Assembly (NCBI GenBank): GCA_010672585.1
Contig: JAAHGF010000024.1
Coordinates: 62,001-126,000 of the forward strand
Direction of reading: 5' to 3'
DNA from: Okeania sp. SIO1I7
GTDB lineage: Bacteria; Cyanobacteriota; Cyanobacteriia; Cyanobacteriales; Microcoleaceae
DNA length: 64,000 bases
Under the pieces are notes generated by a model that was given only the letters and a program-made list of their open reading frames with translations, was not told the DNA's origin and ran no database searches. Position numbers and translations under genes: made by a program. Every line of letters starts with the position of its first letter. The stretch's first letter is position 1. This document shows, in pieces, positions 1-8,538 of this stretch.

Positions 1-525
1 TTTTTTCATTTTAGGGAATAGGGAATAGGGAATAGGGAATAGGGAACAAGGATAAATTTTGTGGCGCACTATTCTGCACGGAAAATATTCTCGCTTCAAC
101 AGTTACATATAGCAGATTTCAGGTAAATTAGGTACACATAAGAATGGTAAAGTGAATGCAAGTGCGGGCATCTTGCCCGCGACTGATGTACCTTACTAAT
201 ATGAAATACGCTCTAATTTTTATTATGGTTAATTAATGAGACTTGATATTAGATAATTATATCTATTATTTTGACTTTTTATAGTAGTCGAAGGAAAGGT
301 TAGGACACCTCAAAAACTTAAAACTCTAGGGCGTGTCATCAATTAAATCTGAAAGAGATACACGGCAAGAATTTTGGGCTTTTGGTCTCGAAATACCCCA
401 GACGCTCAAAATCTTGACTGACAAAGCTTTTAACCTCTAATTGATGACAGACCCTAACAACATAATATTTTTCCTTCTTCCTTCTTTCTTCTTCCTTCTT
501 CCTTCTGCTATACCTATTTTTTTAT
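1..525. repeat. Repeat-filled intergenic region
   Basis: No gene is visible here. Bases 12-50 are a GGGAATA heptamer array. Bases 111-212 are an imperfect palindromic element enclosing a GCGGGCATCTTGCCCGC hairpin; a second copy lies at 34574-34675 and a fragment near 17455-17520. Bases 328-455 are a separate terminal-inverted-repeat element. Bases 475-510 start a polypyrimidine CTTCCTT heptamer array that runs into the 3' end of the next gene. Confidence 0.7.
328..455. mobile_element. MITE-like element with 18-bp terminal inverted repeats
   Basis: The left end AGGGCGTGTCATCAATTA and the reverse complement of the right end AGGGTCTGTCATCAATTA match at 16 of 18 positions. If the element begins at GGG and ends at CCC, it is flanked by TA on both sides. 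This is consistent with a TA target duplication, as in some IS5-type or IS630-type elements (family assignment is inference). It is too short to code for a transposase. Confidence 0.55.
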
Positions 526-1356
526 TCAATATCTGTTTATTCTTCCTTCTTCCTTCTTCCCTCTTCCTTCTTCTTTCTGAAGACAAAAATCACTAATCCA
601 ACCTCGCTGTACAAATAATGGAAGTAATGAACCCACATCAACTTGAGGTTTAATATCAGCAACTTTTTCGCATACAATTTCAAATGGATAATTCCCTTGA
701 AAAATCTTTAGTAATTCCCATTCTTCATTGTTTGGTAAATCAATTCGCATATCATAACCCTGTCGCCACAAAAATATTTTTACTCCACCTTCATCTAGAC
801 TTACCATTTTATCCTCTTGATAATCTGGTTGATTGACTTGCCAAATTCTATGAATAGGATAAATAGACTCTAATAAAACACTATTTTTCGGCAAATATAA
901 AATCAACTCTCCCCATTTTTCTTGAGGAACTTCACCCAAAGCTTGAAAATCTAAACCCTTTGTATCTTCACCACAAAAAACTCGATGCCAATGCCATTCT
1001 AAACGTGCTATATCTGGCAAATATGGTAAGTGTTTTACTGGTTCAAAATCTGCCAGGAAATCTGCAAACTGTTCTCCATAATCTCCTAAATCAGGTGATA
1101 AACAAGGAAACTGATTAATAAATTTTAATGCCGTTGCTTCAAAAAATTTTTCTCCCACTAACTGACATAACACAGGATAAATTGACATTAATGTATTACT
1201 CAAATTCCCAACAACATTACCCCTGTAAATTGCCAAACCTTCCGCAGGTGTTAAATTATTTGGTGCTTTAATATGTTTGCTTAATTCTTCTATACTAATA
1301 CTGTCTTTTTTCCATACAGCTTGGAGAAATAAATTTTGTAGAGTAATATTTTCCAT
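526..1356 (-). CDS. bufC: BufC-like DUF2063 partner protein of a bufferin/MNIO system
   Basis: This protein of about 276 residues resembles the DUF2063 family (HvfC/BufC, described as a putative DNA-binding domain). The family partners DUF692 MNIO enzymes and is thought to recruit the precursor peptide. Visible features are the N-terminal LQNLFLQAVW helix, the AEGLAIYRGNVVGNLSNTL segment and the LEWHWHRVF motif. The ATG at 1356 is preferred over 1407, because the extra 17 residues (MKGETFNLNYLIINYFV) read through AT-rich leader. The downstream neighbour bufB is on the same strand with repeats between. The last 16 or so residues (EEGRGKKEEGRINRY) are encoded by a CTTCCTT heptamer array, so the natural C-terminus has probably been replaced. 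Family call fairly firm; the peptide-recruiting role comes from family knowledge. Confidence 0.8.
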   Translation of the reverse strand: MENITLQNLFLQAVWKKDSISIEELSKHIKAPNNLTPAEGLAIYRGNVVGNLSNTLMSIYPVLCQLVGEKFFEATALKFINQFPCLSPDLGDYGEQFADFLADFEPVKHLPYLPDIARLEWHWHRVFCGEDTKGLDFQALGEVPQEKWGELILYLPKNSVLLESIYPIHRIWQVNQPDYQEDKMVSLDEGGVKIFLWRQGYDMRIDLPNNEEWELLKIFQGNYPFEIVCEKVADIKPQVDVGSLLPLFVQRGWISDFCLQKEEGRGKKEEGRINRY

Positions 1357-1416
1357 TACAAAATAATTAATAATTAAATAATTCAGATTAAAAGTCTCCC
1401 CTTTCAAGGGGAAAAA

Positions 1417-1635
1417 ATTAACGAAGTCAGAAGTCAGAAGTTAACCCCTCCCAACCCACCCCTCGCCCCTCCCCCTCCCAGGAGGGGAGGGGAAGTAGGG
1501 GATTTGAGCTTCCCTCCAAAAATATTTCGCCTTAAAAGGCGGAGTTTTAGACCCATATTATTTTGATAAATTTTTTCCTTAAGGGTTAATCCTCTCCCTT
1601 TTAGGGAGAGGTAATTATCCATTATCCATTATTCA
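1417..1635. repeat. Intergenic hairpin and heptamer repeats between bufC and bufB
   Basis: This holds a G/C-rich inverted block around CTCCCAGGAGGGGAGG, a paired-hairpin repeat (GCCTTAAAAGGC and CTCTCCCTTTTAGGGAGAG) and a CATTATT heptamer array near 1625-1655. Similar blocks recur throughout the window. They separate two genes that would normally be closely spaced. Confidence 0.6.
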
Positions 1636-2553
1636 TTATTCATTATTCATTAATAAACCGACCTTTTGTAATAATTTTTCAGCTTTATTTGCTTCTGCCA
1701 TTAACACTTCAAAACTCGGAATATCTGTATCCCATTCTATTAAAGTAGGTACAGTGCCAAACCTTACTAAAGCTTCTTCATACAACTCCCAAACTGGAGG
1801 ATGAACTGGATAACCGTGAGTATCTAATAGATAATTTTCCTTTTCTTCATAACCTGCTAAATGAATTTGTTTAACCCTTGTTGGTGGGATACCATCCAGA
1901 TATTTTAGAGGGTCAATTCCATTATTTATAGTATTAACGTAAAGATTATTTATATCCAGAAGTAAGTAACAGTCAGCTTTTTTTACTAATCCCTCAATAA
2001 ACTCCCATTCCGACATAGTTGAATCTGTAAAAGTTAAATATGGAGAAGGATTTTCAACCAAAATTTGCCTACCTAAAAATTCTTGTACTTGCAGAATACG
2101 GGATGCCACAAAATCCATCACCTCTTCTGTATAAACAAGCGGAATTAGATCGTTAAGATAGTGACCACTGACAGATATCCAAGATAAATGGTCAGAAATA
2201 AAATCTGGTTCAACTTTTGCTGCTAAATTTTTTAGGCGAGTTAAATAATCTAAATTTAATGGGTCTGTTGAACCCAAAGACATTCCTACTCCATGTAAAG
2301 TGACAGGATAATCTTGACGAATTTTTTCTAAATTAAATAGTGGCAAACCACCAGCACAAAAATAGTTATCTGATAAAACTTCAAACCAATTTACTTTTGG
2401 TTTTTGAGTCAGAATATATTGATAGTGGAGCGAACGTAAAGCAATTCCTGAACCTTGAATTGATGATGACTGAATGTCAGGTAAATCTCCCTCACTTTGC
2501 CAGTTTGGATTAATATCAAATTCTAGTTTTTGAGATTGTGTTTTAGTTGTCAT
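1636..2553 (-). CDS. bufB: BufB-like DUF692 family MNIO enzyme
   Basis: This 305-residue DUF692 protein belongs to the multinuclear non-heme iron oxidative enzymes (MNIO, MbnB-like). These TIM-barrel enzymes modify cysteines in ribosomal peptides. Expected metal-binding motifs appear in order: LHGVG, SDHLSW, LVENPS, LLLDINN, QIHLAG, DTHG and IEWD. Length is typical. It lies between a DUF2063 partner and, 717 bp upstream, a DUF2282 precursor on the same strand, which is the bufferin BufA1-BufB-BufC set. Substrate and product are inferred from this context and from published bufferin work, where cysteines are converted to thiooxazoles and the product binds copper. No DoxX-like bufD is visible nearby. 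Confidence 0.88.
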   Translation of the reverse strand: MTTKTQSQKLEFDINPNWQSEGDLPDIQSSSIQGSGIALRSLHYQYILTQKPKVNWFEVLSDNYFCAGGLPLFNLEKIRQDYPVTLHGVGMSLGSTDPLNLDYLTRLKNLAAKVEPDFISDHLSWISVSGHYLNDLIPLVYTEEVMDFVASRILQVQEFLGRQILVENPSPYLTFTDSTMSEWEFIEGLVKKADCYLLLDINNLYVNTINNGIDPLKYLDGIPPTRVKQIHLAGYEEKENYLLDTHGYPVHPPVWELYEEALVRFGTVPTLIEWDTDIPSFEVLMAEANKAEKLLQKVGLLMNNE

Positions 2554-3270
2554 AAACTGTTTTTATTTAAGAATAAAGAAGGAAGAAGGAAGAAGGAAGA
2601 AGGAAGAACTGGAAAAGTGAATTTGGATGAAAAGTTGTCGCCCCACATCTACAAACCCCAATTAAAAAGAAGGAAGAAGGAAAGACCGAATAACTGGAAA
2701 AGTGGATTTGGCCGAAAAGTTATCGCTCCACATCTACAAACCCCAATTGAGTGGATCTCATATTTGTAAAAACACTTTTTTCCTATTTCCTACTATACCA
2801 ATTCCCATGCATTAGTGCTATACTTGCGCAAGACTTCAGTTATTAACTAATTAGCAGAAGCAGAATCACTTTTTTACTAATTTTAGCTGATTTAATATTC
2901 ATTATTATTATGTTTTTTTCTCCCCCACTCCCCTACTCCCCTATTTCCCCTCCTGGGAGGGGGAGGGGCTAGGGGTGGGTCCCCCGCTCAACAAAATGTA
3001 GAAAAGTTTTTGAGAAATGGTATTACCTATTCCCTATTTCCTATTCCCTAAAAGCAATAAATTTTTGGCTTTATTCAAAATTGAGATGTACCCATAAAAA
3101 AATATGGCATTATTGAATTTTTAGCTGATTTGATTCAACAGAGATAAATAGAGGAAAAGGGATTTATTTATAGAAGATTTTCCTCTGCTCTACTCTATTA
3201 TTATCAAATCATGACTCTATTCAACAATGCCACAAATTTTGTAATAATCACTTAAAATTTGAGTTGATAT
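2554..3270. repeat. Repeat-rich spacer inside the bufferin cluster
   Basis: A 717-bp gap separates bufA1 from bufB. It contains an AGGAAGA heptamer array (2577-2607) and a direct duplication with an 85-bp period (2608-2668 and 2693-2748, sharing the CCCACATCTACAAACCCCAA segment). A CCTCCTGGGAGGGGG block lies near 2945. A 130-bp inverted-repeat element lies at 3104-3233. No gene is seen. Confidence 0.7.
3104..3233. mobile_element. Inverted-repeat element downstream of bufA1
   Basis: The ends TGGCATTATTGAAT and ATTCAACAATGCCA are imperfect inverted repeats, and the similarity extends inward to TGATTTGA / TCAAATCA. An internal GAGGAAAA / TTTTCCTC pair would make the whole element fold. It sits 37 bp past the bufA1 stop, so it may act as an attenuator between bufA1 and bufB as well as being a MITE-like insertion. 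That regulatory role is inference. Confidence 0.5.
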
Positions 3271-3555
3271 CTATTTAGACTCTGGAACATAAACTCTTCC
3301 ACCAACAATTTTCTCGCAAGTACCTTCAGTAACATAAATCCACTCATTAGGATCTGAATCTTTTGCAGCCTTACCTGCACAGTCATGGCCATTAGCACCA
3401 CAATCATTCATACCTTTTTTCACAATACCAGCACATTTTTCCATACCTTCTTTACCAGCAAGAGCTTCCTGACTATTACCAAAAGTAGTAAGACCAACAG
3501 CTAAGACACCAGTTATTGCACTAGCTACAACTAATTTTTTGTTGATGTTTTTCAT
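3271..3555 (-). CDS. bufA1: BufA1-type (DUF2282) bufferin precursor peptide
   Basis: This small 94-residue precursor has a clear Sec-type signal peptide (about residues 1-33: KK, a hydrophobic stretch [15 protein letters not shown], then ALAG). The mature part has four cysteines at residues 41, 52, 59 and 80, in the family pattern EKC...NDC......HDCAG...GTCEKIVGG. This matches DUF2282, now known as BufA1 bufferins, in which an MNIO enzyme and its partner convert cysteines to copper-chelating heterocycles before export to the periplasm. GGAG lies 13 nt upstream of the ATG. It is encoded upstream of bufB and bufC on the same strand. Copper function is taken from the family and has not been shown in this organism. 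Confidence 0.85.
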
Positions 3556-4039
3556 AATATTATTTTCTCCAATTAATTTAGTTCAACCTTACACTTATAA
3601 AGTATTCAGTATTGATATTAAGATAGTCTATGAAAAATCTGAGATTCACCTGAGAAAGTGGTAAAGAGTTAGTGAGTATTTTTTTGCACTAAGGTCTGGT
3701 CATTCCTACACAACTTCAGAACTTAGTTAAACCCTATTCCTCATCAGATAAAATTTGCTTAATTGATAAATAATTATTAGGTAATTTATTCTGATTTATC
3801 CTCTACCTTCTATTCAACGACTATTCAAAAGAATGAAATTTTAGATGCTTGTTTTCAGTTAATCAAGTTGATGATATTAATTTAACTAATAAAACGAAGG
3901 TTTTCCTCAGCAGTTATATTTATGGAAATTCTATTTCATTAATTTATAACAAAAAAGATGGTAGTCATAACATAAATACAAAACTATTAAATAATTTGTG
4001 ACAACTGATAACTGATAACTGAAATAACTATCCTAGCTT
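3556..4039. other. Intergenic region upstream of bufA1
   Basis: No gene or recognised repeat is visible. The AT-rich stretch 3556-3700 should carry the bufA1 promoter and leader, but no operator could be identified by eye. Confidence 0.4.
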
Positions 4040-5368
4040 CTACTTCTTAGCATGGATATAATCAACAAAGTAAAATTGAGGAATTAACCACAATTTCAAC
4101 CAAGCATAAATTCCCATTCCTAAAAGTGCAGTAATTACTAAAGGTAAACCGACTTTAATGCGCAAATTGTCAGGAAAAATAGCAACTCCAGACACAGTAA
4201 CTACAAAATAAGTTAAAAGCAAAATTTGCAATCTTTGTAGATTTTTCAATGCCTGCCGACAACTACTACAATGCTGAGTATGTTGTTGATAACGATCCAA
4301 TAAGAAGGCATGATTATTATTTATTAGATAATTATTGGAATCACTAATTCCAACTTCACTCCAAGGTAATTGACCATCACAATATTTATCAAACCAGTTC
4401 CTAAATTCAATTACTAAACGGTCTGCACTTGTAGGTAATTTATACACCGTTTTCCAACTTTCACTTGATTGTTTTTGTTGCAGTAAATGTTCCTGCTGAT
4501 TTAGTAAAACCATATCTCCATCTATAAGCAAATTTCGAGTTTTGATATGATCCCACCAACGCGGTTTAAACCTGTGAAGTGTTTTGCCAAAATTCCTAGT
4601 AGATTGAGCAATAATTCTAGATTTACCAGGAGATATTGGTATACAATAAGTAACAAGTGCTACTTTCTTACCACTATCACCAATAGTAGTTGCATATTCC
4701 AACCTACAAGGAGGTTCAAAAGTAATTTTTGTGAAGCCTTTTGAAATAGAAACTTCAACTAAATTAATTGTAGATTGCAGAATCTCCATAGGTATAGGTC
4801 TTGCTTTGTCTCTATTACCCAGTACACCATGATGAGCAAAAGGAGCATGACTAGGATCTGCTAAATTTTCGACTAAAATTTCCCAACCATATTCGAGATC
4901 GCGGACATAAGAAGACCACACAAAACCCTTCTCAGCATCTATTTGTGGTGATAATGGTAAGGGTGTAGTAGCAGCTAGGTCTGCTGTTTTCGCATCAGGC
5001 CAAACCCAGAGTAAATCATTTTCCTGACACACTGGTAATGAAGTAACACAGAAATTTTTTTGATTTTTGGCAATAATTTCAGGATTTTCAGCTTGGGGAA
5101 TATGAGTACAGATTCCTTGAGAATCAAATTGCCAACCATGATAACTACACATTAAATTACCGCTTTGTTCATCAACACGACCCTCGCTTAAAGGTGCTAG
5201 ACGGTGAGGACAAGCATCTAAAAATACCTGGTAATTCTCAGAATATCTTGGCTTCCAGATGACTAGACGTATTCCCAGCAGAGTTACCGGAACAGGTATT
5301 TCTGGATCGAGGTCTTCAATGGGAGAAAGAGGATACCAGTGCTGAAAAAAATTAAATTCGGTTTGCAT
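4040..5368 (-). CDS. PaO-like Rieske [2Fe-2S] non-heme iron oxygenase
   Basis: This 442-residue member of the pheophorbide a oxygenase/Tic55/PTC52 group has an N-terminal Rieske domain with cluster ligands C53, H55, C74 and H77 (CPHR and CSYHGW). The catalytic domain begins around residue 150 with the mononuclear iron motif ENLADPSHAPFAHHG (D171, H174, H179). A late CxxC (CSSCRQ) and two C-terminal hydrophobic segments, typical of the PaO/Tic55 subgroup, suggest thylakoid or plasma membrane attachment. In cyanobacteria such proteins have been linked to chlorophyll derivatives, but the substrate here is not identifiable. It stands alone, followed on both sides by repeats. Confidence 0.87.
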   Translation of the reverse strand: MQTEFNFFQHWYPLSPIEDLDPEIPVPVTLLGIRLVIWKPRYSENYQVFLDACPHRLAPLSEGRVDEQSGNLMCSYHGWQFDSQGICTHIPQAENPEIIAKNQKNFCVTSLPVCQENDLLWVWPDAKTADLAATTPLPLSPQIDAEKGFVWSSYVRDLEYGWEILVENLADPSHAPFAHHGVLGNRDKARPIPMEILQSTINLVEVSISKGFTKITFEPPCRLEYATTIGDSGKKVALVTYCIPISPGKSRIIAQSTRNFGKTLHRFKPRWWDHIKTRNLLIDGDMVLLNQQEHLLQQKQSSESWKTVYKLPTSADRLVIEFRNWFDKYCDGQLPWSEVGISDSNNYLINNNHAFLLDRYQQHTQHCSSCRQALKNLQRLQILLLTYFVVTVSGVAIFPDNLRIKVGLPLVITALLGMGIYAWLKLWLIPQFYFVDYIHAKK

Positions 5369-5420
5369 TTTATTTTAGGTAGTAGTTTTTAGGTCAATTT
5401 GTCTCATCTATACCAATTTA

Positions 5421-5618
5421 TATCATGTCCGGTTGAACAGTTATAAATAAACAACGACGGAGGAGTCAGGAGTCAACCCACCCCTAACCCCTCCCAGGAG
5501 GGGAAGTCAGTCCTCAGGAGGGAAGACTGAAGTTGGAAGACTGAAGTTGGAAGAAGGAAGAAGAAGAACTGGAGCTGAAGGAGAAAGTTTTTTTATCACT
5601 AATTATCCGGACATGATA
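5421..5618. mobile_element. MITE-1 copy 1 (TIR TATCATGTCCGG), 3-bp duplication TTA
   Basis: The element begins TATCATGTCCGGTTGAACAG and ends ATTATCCGGACATGATA. It is flanked by TTA on both sides (5418-5420 and 5619-5621). The interior is GAGTCAG and GGAAGAA heptamers plus a CCCTCCCAGGAGGG block. There is no open frame. Confidence 0.85.
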
Positions 5619-5790
5619 TTACTCTAAGGATGTCACAAATAGTCAGCAACTGATGATGTGGAATCATAGGCTGAAATTATTGTAAGCGTCAATACTTTAA
5701 GTCTATCAACTTTCACTTCGCCCATTCTGACTTCCATGAAATCATGTTTTTAGAGAGCTTAACGACTTTAACGAGTTAATTTTTATTACT

Positions 5791-6147
5791 TTACAAAGAC
5801 GAGGAATCATCACATTTTACATTCATATGCTTGGCACCCCAATCTCTCATAGAAATCATAATTGGCTCCAGAGTACGACCATAATTTGTCAGGGAATATT
5901 CTACGTGTGGTGGGACTTCAGCATAGACTTTTCGCGCGACAATATTATCTTTTTCCAATTCGCGTAATTGATTAACAAGCATACGCTGCGTAATACCTTT
6001 AATTTTTTTCTTCAACTCGCCGAAGCGTAATACATCATTCTGCAAAAGATTAAAAATAATAACAGGTTTCCACCGTCCACCAATCACCGATAACGTGGCT
6101 TCGACAGAGCACCCATAGGGATGATCATAATTATTTTTGTGCGTCAT
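5791..6147 (-). CDS. HxlR-family winged-helix transcriptional regulator
   Basis: This is a 118-residue MarR-like HxlR-family DNA-binding protein. The signature region GCSVEATLSVIGGRWKPVII contains the conserved N-terminal cysteine (C13) that several HxlR regulators use to sense electrophiles or quinones. It is followed by the winged helix FGELKKKIKGITQRMLVNQLRELE and the usual YSLTNYG wing. It is transcribed divergently from an enoyl-CoA hydratase/LLM oxidoreductase/SDR operon, the common arrangement for a local repressor. A GTACGTAC palindrome at 6199-6206, about 52 bp upstream of this start, is a possible operator (weak). Family call is firm; target operon is inferred. Confidence 0.88.
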   Translation of the reverse strand: MTHKNNYDHPYGCSVEATLSVIGGRWKPVIIFNLLQNDVLRFGELKKKIKGITQRMLVNQLRELEKDNIVARKVYAEVPPHVEYSLTNYGRTLEPIMISMRDWGAKHMNVKCDDSSSL

Positions 6148-6691
6148 AATTCTCTAAACCTTTCAATAGTTACTTTTAACTCACTATATAAAAAAATTGT
6201 ACGTACTTGTCATTATTTGCATTTTTATTATACTTTTAATCATATAACTCATAAACAAAGGCAGAAGGCAAAAGGAACAATTGGTCTTAGTTCGCGGACA
6301 CTTATGTAGCAATGAGCGCTGGTATATTTACAAATTGCAGGAGGGGCTAAATAGCTAAAAGTCTTATATTGTCAGCAATTTATTCCCCCAGATGAGCTGT
6401 TGCTTTCCGGAGCTGTTGCCTGCGCACAGAGCTATAACTGTTCTGCAATTGTTCCTTTGTGAGCTGAAGCTACGCAGTTTCCCAATTATCAAAATCATAA
6501 GGGTCGCGCAACCCCGCTTTTTAAGGCGATCGGGTTTTTGGAGCGGAGATCAAATCCCCTACTTCCCCTCCCAGGAGGGGAGGGGGAGGGTTAACTTCTG
6601 ACTTCTGACTTCTGACTTCTGACTTCGTTATGTATCCCATGAGGAAACTTTTAGATGTTCAATTTTTAACAACTTGCAAAAGGAGATAGAT
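6148..6691. repeat. Divergent promoter region expanded by repeats
   Basis: This 544-bp region lies between the HxlR gene and the operon. A GTACGTAC palindrome is at 6199-6206. Bases 6555-6590 are a CCCCTCCCAGGAGGGG block, followed by a CTTCTGA heptamer array to about 6627. A small 69-codon open frame in this region is made largely of repeat DNA and is not called. Confidence 0.5.
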
Positions 6692-7537
6692 ATGACTTAT
6701 GAAAACTACACTACATTCAAGGCGACAAAGGATGGAGCAGTCCTTACTGTTACTTTTGATTACCCTCCTGTGAATGTTCAAGGCATTCCTATGCTAGACG
6801 ATCTAAATCATTTGGCGGAAACACTTGAGGGCGATCGCCACATCAAGGTTGTTGTTTTCCAGTCTGCGCACCCAGAGATTTTTGTGGCCCATGCCGACAC
6901 TAATTTCCTCAAAGATATGTCTACAACAGCAGTATCGCGCGACGAGGTAGAACTGCTCTATCTACAGACAACACTAGAGCGTATTAGTAAACTGCCACAG
7001 GCGACTATTGCCAAAATCGAAGGGTTCGCACGGGGTGGCGGTCATGAATTTGCGCTGGCTTGTGATATGCGCTTTGCCGCTCGTGGCAAGGCAAAGTTCA
7101 TGCAGATGGAAGTTGGTATGGGCATCCTGCCTTGTGGTGGTGGCGCATCACGTATGGCGCGTCAGGCAGGTTTGGGCCGGGCATTGGAAATTATTTTAAG
7201 TGCGCGTGATTTTGATGCGGACGAAGCAGAAGCCTATGGCACTATTAATAAAGCTCTCGATGCTGACAAAATAGGTGCTTATGTTGATAATTTGGCAAAA
7301 CGCATCGCCCATTTCCCAGCGGATTCGATTAATGCTTGTAAGCAGGCAGTCTATGCTTCAATTGATCAACCAATCGAAGAAGCGCTCAAGGAAGAAGCCT
7401 ACTGGCTCTATCAGGCAACAAGCAAAACACCAGCAATTAAGCGTTTCCAAGTTGCAGATGACACAAGCCTTCAAAATGATATGGAGAACCAGCGTAACTG
7501 GGAGCAAGGAGTTATTGCTATTCAGGAAATCGAATAA
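6692..7537 (+). CDS. Enoyl-CoA hydratase/isomerase (crotonase) family protein
   Basis: This is a crotonase-fold protein of about 281 residues. It has the FARGGGHEFALACDMRFAA segment around the second oxyanion-hole glycine and the GIL.CGGGASRMARQAG...A.EI stretch typical of the family. The ATG at 6692 is chosen because AGGAG lies 8 nt upstream; an in-frame ATG at 6674 lacks a site. It is first in a three-gene plus-strand run with an LLM flavin oxidoreductase and an SDR, opposite an HxlR gene. The exact reaction is not evident. Its GC-richer codon use differs from the AT-rich housekeeping genes, which supports acquisition. Confidence 0.85.
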   Translation: MTYENYTTFKATKDGAVLTVTFDYPPVNVQGIPMLDDLNHLAETLEGDRHIKVVVFQSAHPEIFVAHADTNFLKDMSTTAVSRDEVELLYLQTTLERISKLPQATIAKIEGFARGGGHEFALACDMRFAARGKAKFMQMEVGMGILPCGGGASRMARQAGLGRALEIILSARDFDADEAEAYGTINKALDADKIGAYVDNLAKRIAHFPADSINACKQAVYASIDQPIEEALKEEAYWLYQATSKTPAIKRFQVADDTSLQNDMENQRNWEQGVIAIQEIE

Positions 7538-7569
7538 TGGGCACTGAACAGAACTGACTAGAATTTAAA

Positions 7570-8538
7570 ATGCTTGAGAAAACAAACAAGTTAGGATTTC
7601 AATCCATTAATAAAGGATACAATTCAGTATTTCGTTTGGGACGACTGAGTGTTGGATTAGTGGTACCAATCGAGAATTACTCCTCAGGGGCGGTGCCTTC
7701 CATGGTTCGACACATAGAACACGTTCAATTAGCAGAAGAACTTGGATTTTCTGCTGTTTGGTTGCGTGATGTACCGTTTAATGTACCGTCTTTTGGTGAC
7801 GCTGGTCAAATCTATGACCCTTTTGTCTATTTAGGTTTGCTCGCTGGTCAAACTGAGCGAATTGCACTTGGTGTTGCTAGTATGATTTTACCGTTGAGGC
7901 ATCCAGCTCACGTTGCCAAAGCCGCCGCCAGCGCCGATGTATTGTCAGGTGGAAGACTCATTTTAGGCATTGCCTCTGGCGATCGACCAGAAGAATATCC
8001 AGCACTAAACTTCCCTTTTGCCGATCGCGGTAAACTATTTCGTGAAAGCTATGACTATATTCGCTACATGGGCGATAATACACCAAATTTTGAAAATACC
8101 TATGGTGGCACGAATGGCTTGATCGATATGTTGCCTAAGCCTAATTCAAGAAAACTGCCACTGCTTATTACAGGAAATAGTCAGCAAAGCCATGAGTGGA
8201 TTGCACAAAATGGAGATGGCTGGATGCTGTATCCTCGTAATGCTGCGTTGCAAGCACAAATCATCAAAGATTGGCGAGAGCTAGTTCGGAAAGTAGGAAG
8301 GTCTACCCAACCGATTATGGAACCGCTTTATATTGATTTGGTCGAAGCATCTAATGTCCCTCCCCAACCTATCCACTTAGGATTTCGCCTGGGAGTCAAA
8401 TATCTTCGAGATTATTTGAAATCACGGGAAGATATCGGTGTCAATCATGTTGCGCTGAACCTGCGCTTTAATAGAGCTGATATTGATACCACACTGAAAT
8501 ATTTAGCAGATGATATCCTGCCAGAATTCAATGGATAA
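7570..8538 (+). CDS. LLM-class (luciferase-like) flavin-dependent oxidoreductase
   Basis: This 322-residue F420/FMN luciferase-like monooxygenase resembles the TIGR03571 (BA3436) type. The N-terminal SINKGYNSVFRLGRLSVGL, the LAEELGFSAVWLRDVPF strand-helix, the SGGRLILGIASGDRPEEYPA phosphate-binding region and the C-terminal ...YLRDYLKSREDIGVNHVALN match that group. It starts 32 bp after the crotonase gene and ends 13 bp before the SDR start, so co-transcription is likely. The reaction is unknown. With an HxlR-controlled context, a role in handling electrophilic or quinone-like compounds is plausible but inferred. Confidence 0.87.
   Translation: MLEKTNKLGFQSINKGYNSVFRLGRLSVGLVVPIENYSSGAVPSMVRHIEHVQLAEELGFSAVWLRDVPFNVPSFGDAGQIYDPFVYLGLLAGQTERIALGVASMILPLRHPAHVAKAAASADVLSGGRLILGIASGDRPEEYPALNFPFADRGKLFRESYDYIRYMGDNTPNFENTYGGTNGLIDMLPKPNSRKLPLLITGNSQQSHEWIAQNGDGWMLYPRNAALQAQIIKDWRELVRKVGRSTQPIMEPLYIDLVEASNVPPQPIHLGFRLGVKYLRDYLKSREDIGVNHVALNLRFNRADIDTTLKYLADDILPEFNG

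Follow-up and report, generated by a model that had tools for sequence, protein, structure and literature searches.

In Buf1 bufferins, 5-thiooxazoles are formed at the central cysteines and a disulfide joins the outer ones (PMC12452194, PMC13097082). In PMC12452194, the bufA-bufB-bufC order is described as strictly conserved in bufferin clusters, and DoxX stands among the listed core genes, yet is present in "many" clusters. Cyanobacteria need copper as a cofactor, and it is used against blooms because it is toxic in excess (PMC12292863). Synechocystis defends itself against copper with CopRS, CopBAC, and CopM (PMC4335983). Marine filamentous cyanobacteria, Okeania and Trichodesmium among them, would gain a further layer of defense from a peptide metal buffer. 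Here, we describe a locus in a window, which is the whole 64,000-nucleotide stretch of DNA that was analyzed, from an Okeania genome. Its host, a marine filamentous cyanobacterium, has a complete three-gene set for this type of metal-binding peptide. The trio is very probably a functional Buf1 bufferin cluster, whose peptide would be matured, exported, and bind metal, with bufA under putative operator control.

The bufA, bufB, and bufC genes

The preliminary description had placed a DUF2282 precursor, an MNIO enzyme, and a DUF2063 partner on one strand of a cyanobacterial genome. All three open reading frames lie on the minus strand at the coordinates below, and the nearest named relatives of the host are Okeania.

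3271-3555, minus strand: bufA, Buf1 (DUF2282) precursor, 94 aa, cysteines 41, 52, 59, and 80 (PF10048, E 7.5e-22)
3457-3555, minus strand: putative signal peptide of BufA, Sec-type, spanning residues 1-33, with A-L-A before G34 (by eye)
1636-2553, minus strand: bufB, MNIO bufferin maturase, 305 aa (PF05114, E 1.6e-105; NF050167, 366 bits)
526-1356, minus strand: bufC, DUF2063 partner protein, 276 aa (DUF2063, E 1e-21, residues 6-101)
2554-3270, minus strand: 717-bp spacer between bufA and bufB, which contains tandem repeats of 7 bp, a GC-rich repeat, and an 85-bp tandem duplication (2583-2748)
1357-1635, minus strand: 279-bp spacer between bufB and bufC, which contains tandem repeats and in which the GC-rich repeat recurs in inverted form (1454-1488)
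3639-3655, minus strand: TCTCAG-N5-TCTCAG, a putative operator located 100 bp ahead of the bufA ATG (from its conservation across cyanobacterial bufA loci)
3615-3620, minus strand: candidate -10 element TAATAT, downstream of the putative operator (by eye, not a scan match)

The E-values of the three family matches are far beyond chance, and the whole genome gives one MNIO and one DUF2282 match. The proposed bufferin-type (Buf1) assignment stands because of these family matches, the canonical gene order, and the retained ligand positions of BufB, which scores 366 bits with the NCBIfam MNIO_BufB model (NF050167; cut-off, 310). The putative iron ligands of BufB, assigned by alignment, are H87, H122, E167, N203, H231, D244, H246, and E273. 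A check of the metal ligands had been called for, and these eight putative positions are retained on alignment, each in no fewer than 50 of the 51 MNIOs compared. The sampled cyanobacterial BufBs form a single clade (22 rows, support 100/99).

The signal region of BufA, read by eye, consists of a Lys-rich start, a hydrophobic stretch, and an AxA motif. The four-cysteine pattern pointed out earlier is conserved in the relatives aligned from 26 other cyanobacterial loci, except that two of the cysteines are gone in L022. A search of viral contigs gave no match to BufA. The Buf1 partner is a DUF2063 protein, PME type 1, of ~250-260 aa with an RRE domain; in BufC, which is 276 aa long when read from ATG (an alternative TTG start is open at 1407), the DUF2063 part is matched, within the N-terminal third of the protein. 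A 7-bp repeat array (471-578) codes for about the final 16 residues of BufC. The structure model of BufC, built with nine close sequences, is poor (mean pLDDT 36.6) and was set aside, and a wider BufC profile matched no solved partner structure. The restricted DUF2063 match and these two structural results count against a functional cluster. Single-sequence matches of BufC to TAL-effector chains were rejected as spurious, as they cover ~38 residues and no stretch is significant alone.

By analogy with the family, the BufA precursor would be made on the ribosome, and BufB, a multi-iron oxidase, would act with BufC, its recognition partner, to turn C52 and C59 into 5-thiooxazoles in the cytoplasm. 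BufA would then be exported by Sec, the signal being cut near A33 and the C41-C80 disulfide forming. In the periplasm, the mature peptide may bind copper or a comparable soft metal.

Of 388 genomes sampled from the order, 27 carry DUF2282, and Buf1 genes are present in seven cyanobacterial family codes. The three families also co-occur in related cyanobacterial genomes, as the preliminary description had proposed to check.

Neighboring genes and the direct repeat before bufA

No DoxX gene follows the cluster, as noted earlier; the two DoxX matches of the genome sit on other contigs. Relatives of the sigma factor, NrsF, and DoxX were found in none of 31 cyanobacterial stretches, and the same queries recover their kin in the plasmid loci. 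Nine plasmid loci make up the proteobacterial comparison sample, and three of them also lack DoxX. Because of this absence and of the wording "many" in PMC12452194, we do not take DoxX as required for Buf1. A link to photosynthesis had also been proposed, and this was not borne out: a Rieske/PaO neighbor occurs in 3 of 27 places (the window and the close Okeania loci L018 and L019), some contigs being too short to show PaO.

Transcription of bufA might be controlled by a direct-repeat operator, and not by the sigma/anti-sigma genes of some proteobacterial clusters, judging from the sequence upstream of the gene. Of the 27 cyanobacterial bufA loci, 19 carry TCTCAG-N5-TCTCAG within one mismatch, typically ~100 bp upstream of bufA, where shuffles predict 0.02; none of eight proteobacterial bufA loci has it. 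The 22-bp operator block shares 77-91% identity with its counterparts at seven loci from other families, and the outer flanks share 22-47%. Eight of the 27 loci have no repeat within one mismatch, including two in the window's own family code, which counts against the operator. The half-sites are 11 bp apart and lie upstream of the by-eye -10 element. This spacing has what we take to be the geometry typical of OmpR/PhoB-type response-regulator sites. The direct repeat suggests response-regulator control of bufA, and its conservation before bufA, together with its absence from the few proteobacterial relatives examined, looks new. A promoter scan, which reports consensus matches only and was not relied on, gave 34 sites, where shuffled sequence averages 23.7 (sd 4.5), and its candidate before bufA (3586-3559) differs from the TAATAT read by eye.

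The genome holds one further exact match to the repeat, which could be chance if taken alone. Across the genus, each of the five Okeania genomes has the same TCTCAGGAAAATCTCAG, and four of these sites precede a cellulose-synthase-like GT2 gene. In G001 (L156), no ORF of 60 aa starts within 350 bp of the TCTCAGGAAAATCTCAG site. In three genomes of family f14, the exact repeat also precedes genes of the DUF547 type. It occurs at 35 sites in 20 bufA-bearing genomes and at 7 sites in eight genomes without bufA, compared with 5 and 1 for the reversed pattern. This excess in both sets indicates that the repeat is not specific to bufferins. Among the exact sites made into loci, a survey that left out 11 sites from the count in these 20 and 8 genomes, many precede unrelated genes or none. 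Up to ~1 exact repeat per genome is estimated to arise by chance (across the five Okeania genomes, the reversed control gives 2 sites), so some of the other sites are noise.

As a tentative alternative, a genuine cluster may serve not against copper excess but against another metal (gold, mercury, zinc, or iron) or an envelope/oxidative stress, its operator linking it to surface polysaccharide synthesis. The repeat before the GT2 and DUF547-type genes is in line with such a role, and no copper gene is present among the flanking genes scanned (two plus six on the right and five on the left), which also counts against the preferred reading. Functions with other metals are also suggested in PMC12452194. 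On the other hand, the Buf1 members studied to date are tied to copper (PMC12452194, PMC13097082), and the chance rate of the repeat weakens the case from its sites. A single response regulator might even act through TCTCAG-N5-TCTCAG to switch on the metal-buffering peptide together with the cellulose-synthase-like exopolysaccharide gene, filamentous cyanobacteria having drawn the bufferin system into an envelope-stress circuit of their own; we consider this unlikely. If true, periplasmic metal capture and sheath production would be one response.

Gene spacing and selection

The gaps of 717 and 279 bp with short tandem repeats agree in their coordinates with the preliminary description, which had also spoken of a split gene order. 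The order itself is canonical, bufA-bufB-bufC, and the spacing alone is unusual. Every cyanobacterial DUF2282 locus having more than one of the three genes shows the A-B-C order. In the nearest relatives of the genus, bufB and bufC overlap by one base or almost touch, and the overlap is one base in L021, L022, L025, L026, and L121-L123. A hairpin that resembles a terminator occupies 1414-1395 in the bufB-bufC gap, and Rfam at the gathering threshold gave no match in window positions 1-8000. The wide gaps and the hairpin count against a functional Buf1 cluster, as bufB and bufC may not share the bufA transcript.

It is improbable that the locus is decaying, with repeat expansion having parted the genes so that only bufA may be properly expressed. 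The repeat-bearing gaps, the repeat-encoded end of bufC, and the broken or altered genes in some relatives (L022, L027, L121, and L122) would fit such a decay. However, the three frames are all open in the window, and the full trio persists across similarly wide gaps in four further Okeania loci (L017-L020). In addition, dN/dS is below 1 for each gene in seven comparisons made without a significance test (0.20-0.70 for bufA, 0.12-0.26 for bufB, and 0.10-0.27 for bufC). The upper bufA value of 0.70 counts against a functional cluster, which we nevertheless prefer.

Comparison with known MNIO clusters

BufA is most improbable as a precursor of another MNIO peptide class (BufA2, oxazolin/EGKCG, or methanobactin). 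A weak match to the BufA2 model NF050166, at 20.4 bits, speaks for such a class, but the cut-off is 60, BufA has four cysteines and not six or twelve, its sequence contains no EGKCG motif, and BufB falls under the cut-offs of the HvfB (241 against 360 bits) and MbnB (63.5 against 325 bits) models. Like the oxazolin/HvfABC systems (PMC13419390), the functional Buf1 cluster proposed here would combine an MNIO, a partner with a putative RRE, and a precursor with a putative Sec signal, and BufB keeps the residues aligned to essential HvfB positions; the missing EGKCG repeats and the HvfB score set it apart. The ChrH-type MNIO clusters of Cyanobacteriota (PMC12636315) also give rise to cyanobacterial RiPPs that an MNIO modifies, and some of these have a secretion signal. 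They differ in MNIO subfamily, precursors, and chemistry, and BufB scores 44 bits against the ChrH cut-off of 600. The TIGR04222-MNIO clusters of family f25 share a cyanobacterial MNIO, whereas their candidate substrate is a membrane protein and their MNIO is a distant branch; samples of these f25 genomes gave no DUF2282 match.

The closest likeness is to the Buf1 clusters described in PMC12452194, with a four-cysteine DUF2282 precursor bearing a putative Sec-type signal, an MNIO BufB, a DUF2063 BufC, and the A-B-C order. In contrast to those clusters, the neighborhood yielded no relative of DoxX, a sigma factor, or NrsF, and the gaps are wide and repeat-bearing. The locus also differs from them in a BufB clade of its own, in a small sample, and in the putative direct-repeat operator before bufA. 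This conserved repeat offers a testable handle on bufferin control outside proteobacteria and on the genes that may respond together with bufA.

The bufferin cluster and its products

The window, bases 62001-126000 of contig C27 in a 9.48-Mb genome that is closest, among named organisms, to Okeania species, holds a real and conserved cyanobacterial Buf1 bufferin cluster, of a kind that is already known. Its three genes lie one after another at the window's left edge:

3555-3271, minus strand: bufA, precursor gene, DUF2282 (E 7.5e-22)
2553-1636, minus strand: bufB, maturase gene, MNIO family PF05114 (E 1.6e-105)
1356-526, minus strand: bufC, partner gene, DUF2063 (E 1e-21)

The window's BufB scores 366 bits against the NCBI BufB model (cut-off 310) and stays below the cut-offs of the HvfB, MbnB, ApyH and ChrH models. 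The genome contains one MNIO match, one DUF2282 match and two DoxX matches, the latter both on contigs other than the cluster's. In a phmmer search, BufB matched the solved MNIOs 3bww (E 1.6e-49), TglH and MbnB. The preliminary description had taken BufB for an MNIO enzyme, and its putative metal-ligand positions are indeed kept, all eight in at least 50 of 51 aligned MNIOs: H87, H122, E167, H231 and D244 do not vary, and N203, H246 and E273 each show one exception. H87, H122, E167, H231 and E273 are putative iron ligands. Placed via the 3bww alignment, N203, D244 and H246 would correspond by position to HvfB N175, D242 and H244, which PMC13419390 reports to be essential.

BufA is a 94-residue peptide whose cysteines are C41, C52, C59 and C80. 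Its N-terminus, read by eye, starts Lys-rich, continues with a hydrophobic segment and has an ALA site in front of G34. Buf1 bufferins carry their modification on the central cysteines and link the outer pair by a disulphide (PMC12452194). The four-cysteine pattern noted earlier proved to be conserved, as C..NDC..HxC..C-KI recurs in the aligned cyanobacterial precursors except those of loci L022 and L118. BufA fails the NCBI BufA2 model (20 bits against a cut-off of 60), and the two proteobacterial DUF2282 precursors tested reached no family cut-off in the NCBI library. In L022 (2557-2898), bufA lacks the first and third cysteines and has its NDCGA motif triplicated in tandem; bufC of this locus is split into two pieces. 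L118 (genome G052, 2659-4569) has three consecutive bufA-like genes with five DUF2282 domains in total; two of them code for double-domain precursors, the third for one domain and part of another. Buf1/Buf1 fusions are already known, as PMC12452194 reports.

Distribution, gene order and evolution

Of 386 genomes sampled evenly across the phylum, 2 have DUF2282, one being the window's own, and 28 have MNIO. Among 61 genomes of the family, 11 have DUF2282 and 11 have MNIO, 10 having both, and an even sample of the order gave DUF2282 in 27 of 388 genomes (7 family codes, 12 of 149 genera). Here 27 distinct bufA places are considered: the window, all of L017-L027, and 15 loci from L106-L125, a set of 20 from which five duplicates were dropped. 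The trio reported for the window recurs in relatives, with matches to all three genes in 22 of these 27 places, four of which have a broken gene (L022, L027, L121, L122). Among the others, the contig ends before the full trio is seen in L106 and L108, bufC was not found in L119, and bufA stands alone in L111, whose genome G034 has no MNIO match, and in L117, whose genome G575 has another trio. The order is A-B-C in every cyanobacterial bufA locus with more than one gene found. In L023 (6900-8068), bufC is partly duplicated in tandem, a 111-aa copy preceding the full one.

The absence of DoxX noted for the window extends to the cyanobacterial bufA stretches, where neither DoxX nor, at E 0.1, any relative of one plasmid sigma factor or of a partial NrsF was detected, within stretches that in L020, L021, L026, L027 and others end less than 1 kb after bufC. 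In the proteobacterial plasmid loci, DoxX occurs in 6 of 9 and a sigma factor in 4 of 9 (the latter partly from annotation).

The genes bufB and bufC are 279 bp apart in the window and 397-607 bp apart in its closest relatives, the other Okeania loci L017-L020. Most simply, this wide gap would be derived in the window's genus, because the next relatives in the tree, L021-L023, have overlapping or near-touching genes: a one-base overlap occurs in seven loci (L021, L022, L025, L026, L121-L123), and the distance in L023 is 11 bp. Wide gaps occur elsewhere too, in L110 (244 bp), L112 (167 bp) and L118 (136 bp). The bufA-bufB gap, counted from the last listed start, is 4-649 bp among the other measured cyanobacterial loci, L027 excepted. 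Tandem repeats of 7 bp occur in both gaps of the window, as do inverted copies of a GC-rich repeat; the bufA-bufB gap additionally has an 85-bp duplication. A 7-bp TTCCTTC array at 471-578 enters bufC, encoding its last ~16 residues.

In the tree, 22 cyanobacterial BufBs form one side of a branch with support 100/99 and adjoin eight of nine proteobacterial plasmid BufBs. The ninth (L065) groups with other MNIOs through a weak, long-branch join, and the remaining MNIOs of the phylum are distant from the cyanobacterial BufBs. Between the window and seven relatives, dN/dS is 0.20-0.70 for bufA, 0.12-0.26 for bufB and 0.10-0.27 for bufC.

The earlier proposal of a photosynthesis link did not hold as a stable one, since the Rieske/PaO gene upstream of the cluster was detected in the window, L018 and L019 alone. 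An HxlR neighbour is found in the window and L019 only. Pfam searches of further flanking ORFs, six to the right and five to the left, identified enoyl-CoA hydratase, luciferase-like, dehydrogenase, DUF4437, hydrolase, M48 peptidase, DUF4330, kinase-AAA, DUF2059 and WD40 proteins, and no copper genes were among the flanking genes scanned.

Two other arrangements were observed. In family f25 (L134-L136, L139-L142, L144), a membrane protein gene is followed by a distant MNIO and a conserved protein of ~180-215 aa; the membrane protein is TIGR04222 in L134, the one tested, with which the other seven cluster, and the L134 ~180-215-aa protein has no Pfam match. In family f49 of the same phylum (L128-L131, L133), an MNIO accompanies a gene with a weak match to the BufC profile, near thioredoxin-like and ferredoxin-like genes (named by eye).

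A putative operator upstream of bufA

A direct repeat, TCTCAG-N5-TCTCAG, precedes bufA and is followed by TAATAT:

3655-3639, upstream of bufA: putative operator TCTCAGGTGAATCTCAG, two half-sites 11 bp apart

Taking the most upstream bufA copy per locus, the repeat is exact in 12 of the 27 bufA loci, has one mismatch in 7, two in 2 and more in 6; dinucleotide shuffles predict 0.02 loci at one mismatch or fewer. It is found in none of eight proteobacterial loci, the ninth (L061) having no bufA match. Because the motif was discovered in these same loci, many of them close kin, the fair count is that of families: copies with at most one mismatch occur in five family codes (f1, f4, f8, f14, f16), and the single f7 and f18 loci have two and five mismatches. 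The locus of G005, a genome with a short contig that was excluded from the counts, has a one-mismatch copy (by eye). Ten loci were compared in register with the window, seven of them from other families. In these seven, identity to the window is 77-91% for the 22-bp operator block, 22-47% for the outer flanks and 24-68% for the 25 bp immediately downstream of the block. Copies with at most one mismatch lie 79-101 bp upstream of the gene, or 154 bp in four f14 loci. The lone bufA genes of L111 and L117 retain the exact repeat.

Each of the five Okeania genomes has the exact repeat at bufA and again at a second place, where all five share the sequence TCTCAGGAAAATCTCAG; one of them has two further exact sites. 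Together these genomes hold 12 exact sites against 2 with the reversed pattern. The next gene after the second site is a cellulose-synthase-like glycosyltransferase in four of the five, and the repeat also precedes such a gene in G011, G016 and G021, the last without a DUF2282 match. Pfam covers the copy of the window's genome (PF13641, E 1.8e-21; PF03552, E 6.8e-14), those of other genomes being recognised by similar starts. From the site to the longest ORF start, the distance is 215-233 bp in G002 and G016 and 94-101 bp in the other five. In addition, three f14 genomes have the repeat upstream of a lipoprotein-like gene; the single copy tested is DUF547. Twenty bufA-bearing genomes contain 35 exact sites against 5 reversed, and eight genomes without bufA contain 7 against 1.

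Relation to known systems

The literature search found no paper on a TCTCAG direct repeat in cyanobacteria, and regulation is the aspect of the cyanobacterial bufferin cluster that merits follow-up. Among the bufferin, DUF2282 and MNIO papers found, no title or abstract opening mentions a cyanobacterial bufferin; the Buf1 taxonomy of PMC12452194 could include cyanobacteria. One text joins DUF2282 with a cyanobact- word, which is merely "cyanobactin" in a reference. PMC12636315 describes ChrH-type MNIOs in Cyanobacteriota, and therefore MNIO peptides as such are already known in the phylum. The ChrH-type systems likewise have a cyanobacterial MNIO, but the window's BufB differs from them in falling under the cut-off of the ChrH model.
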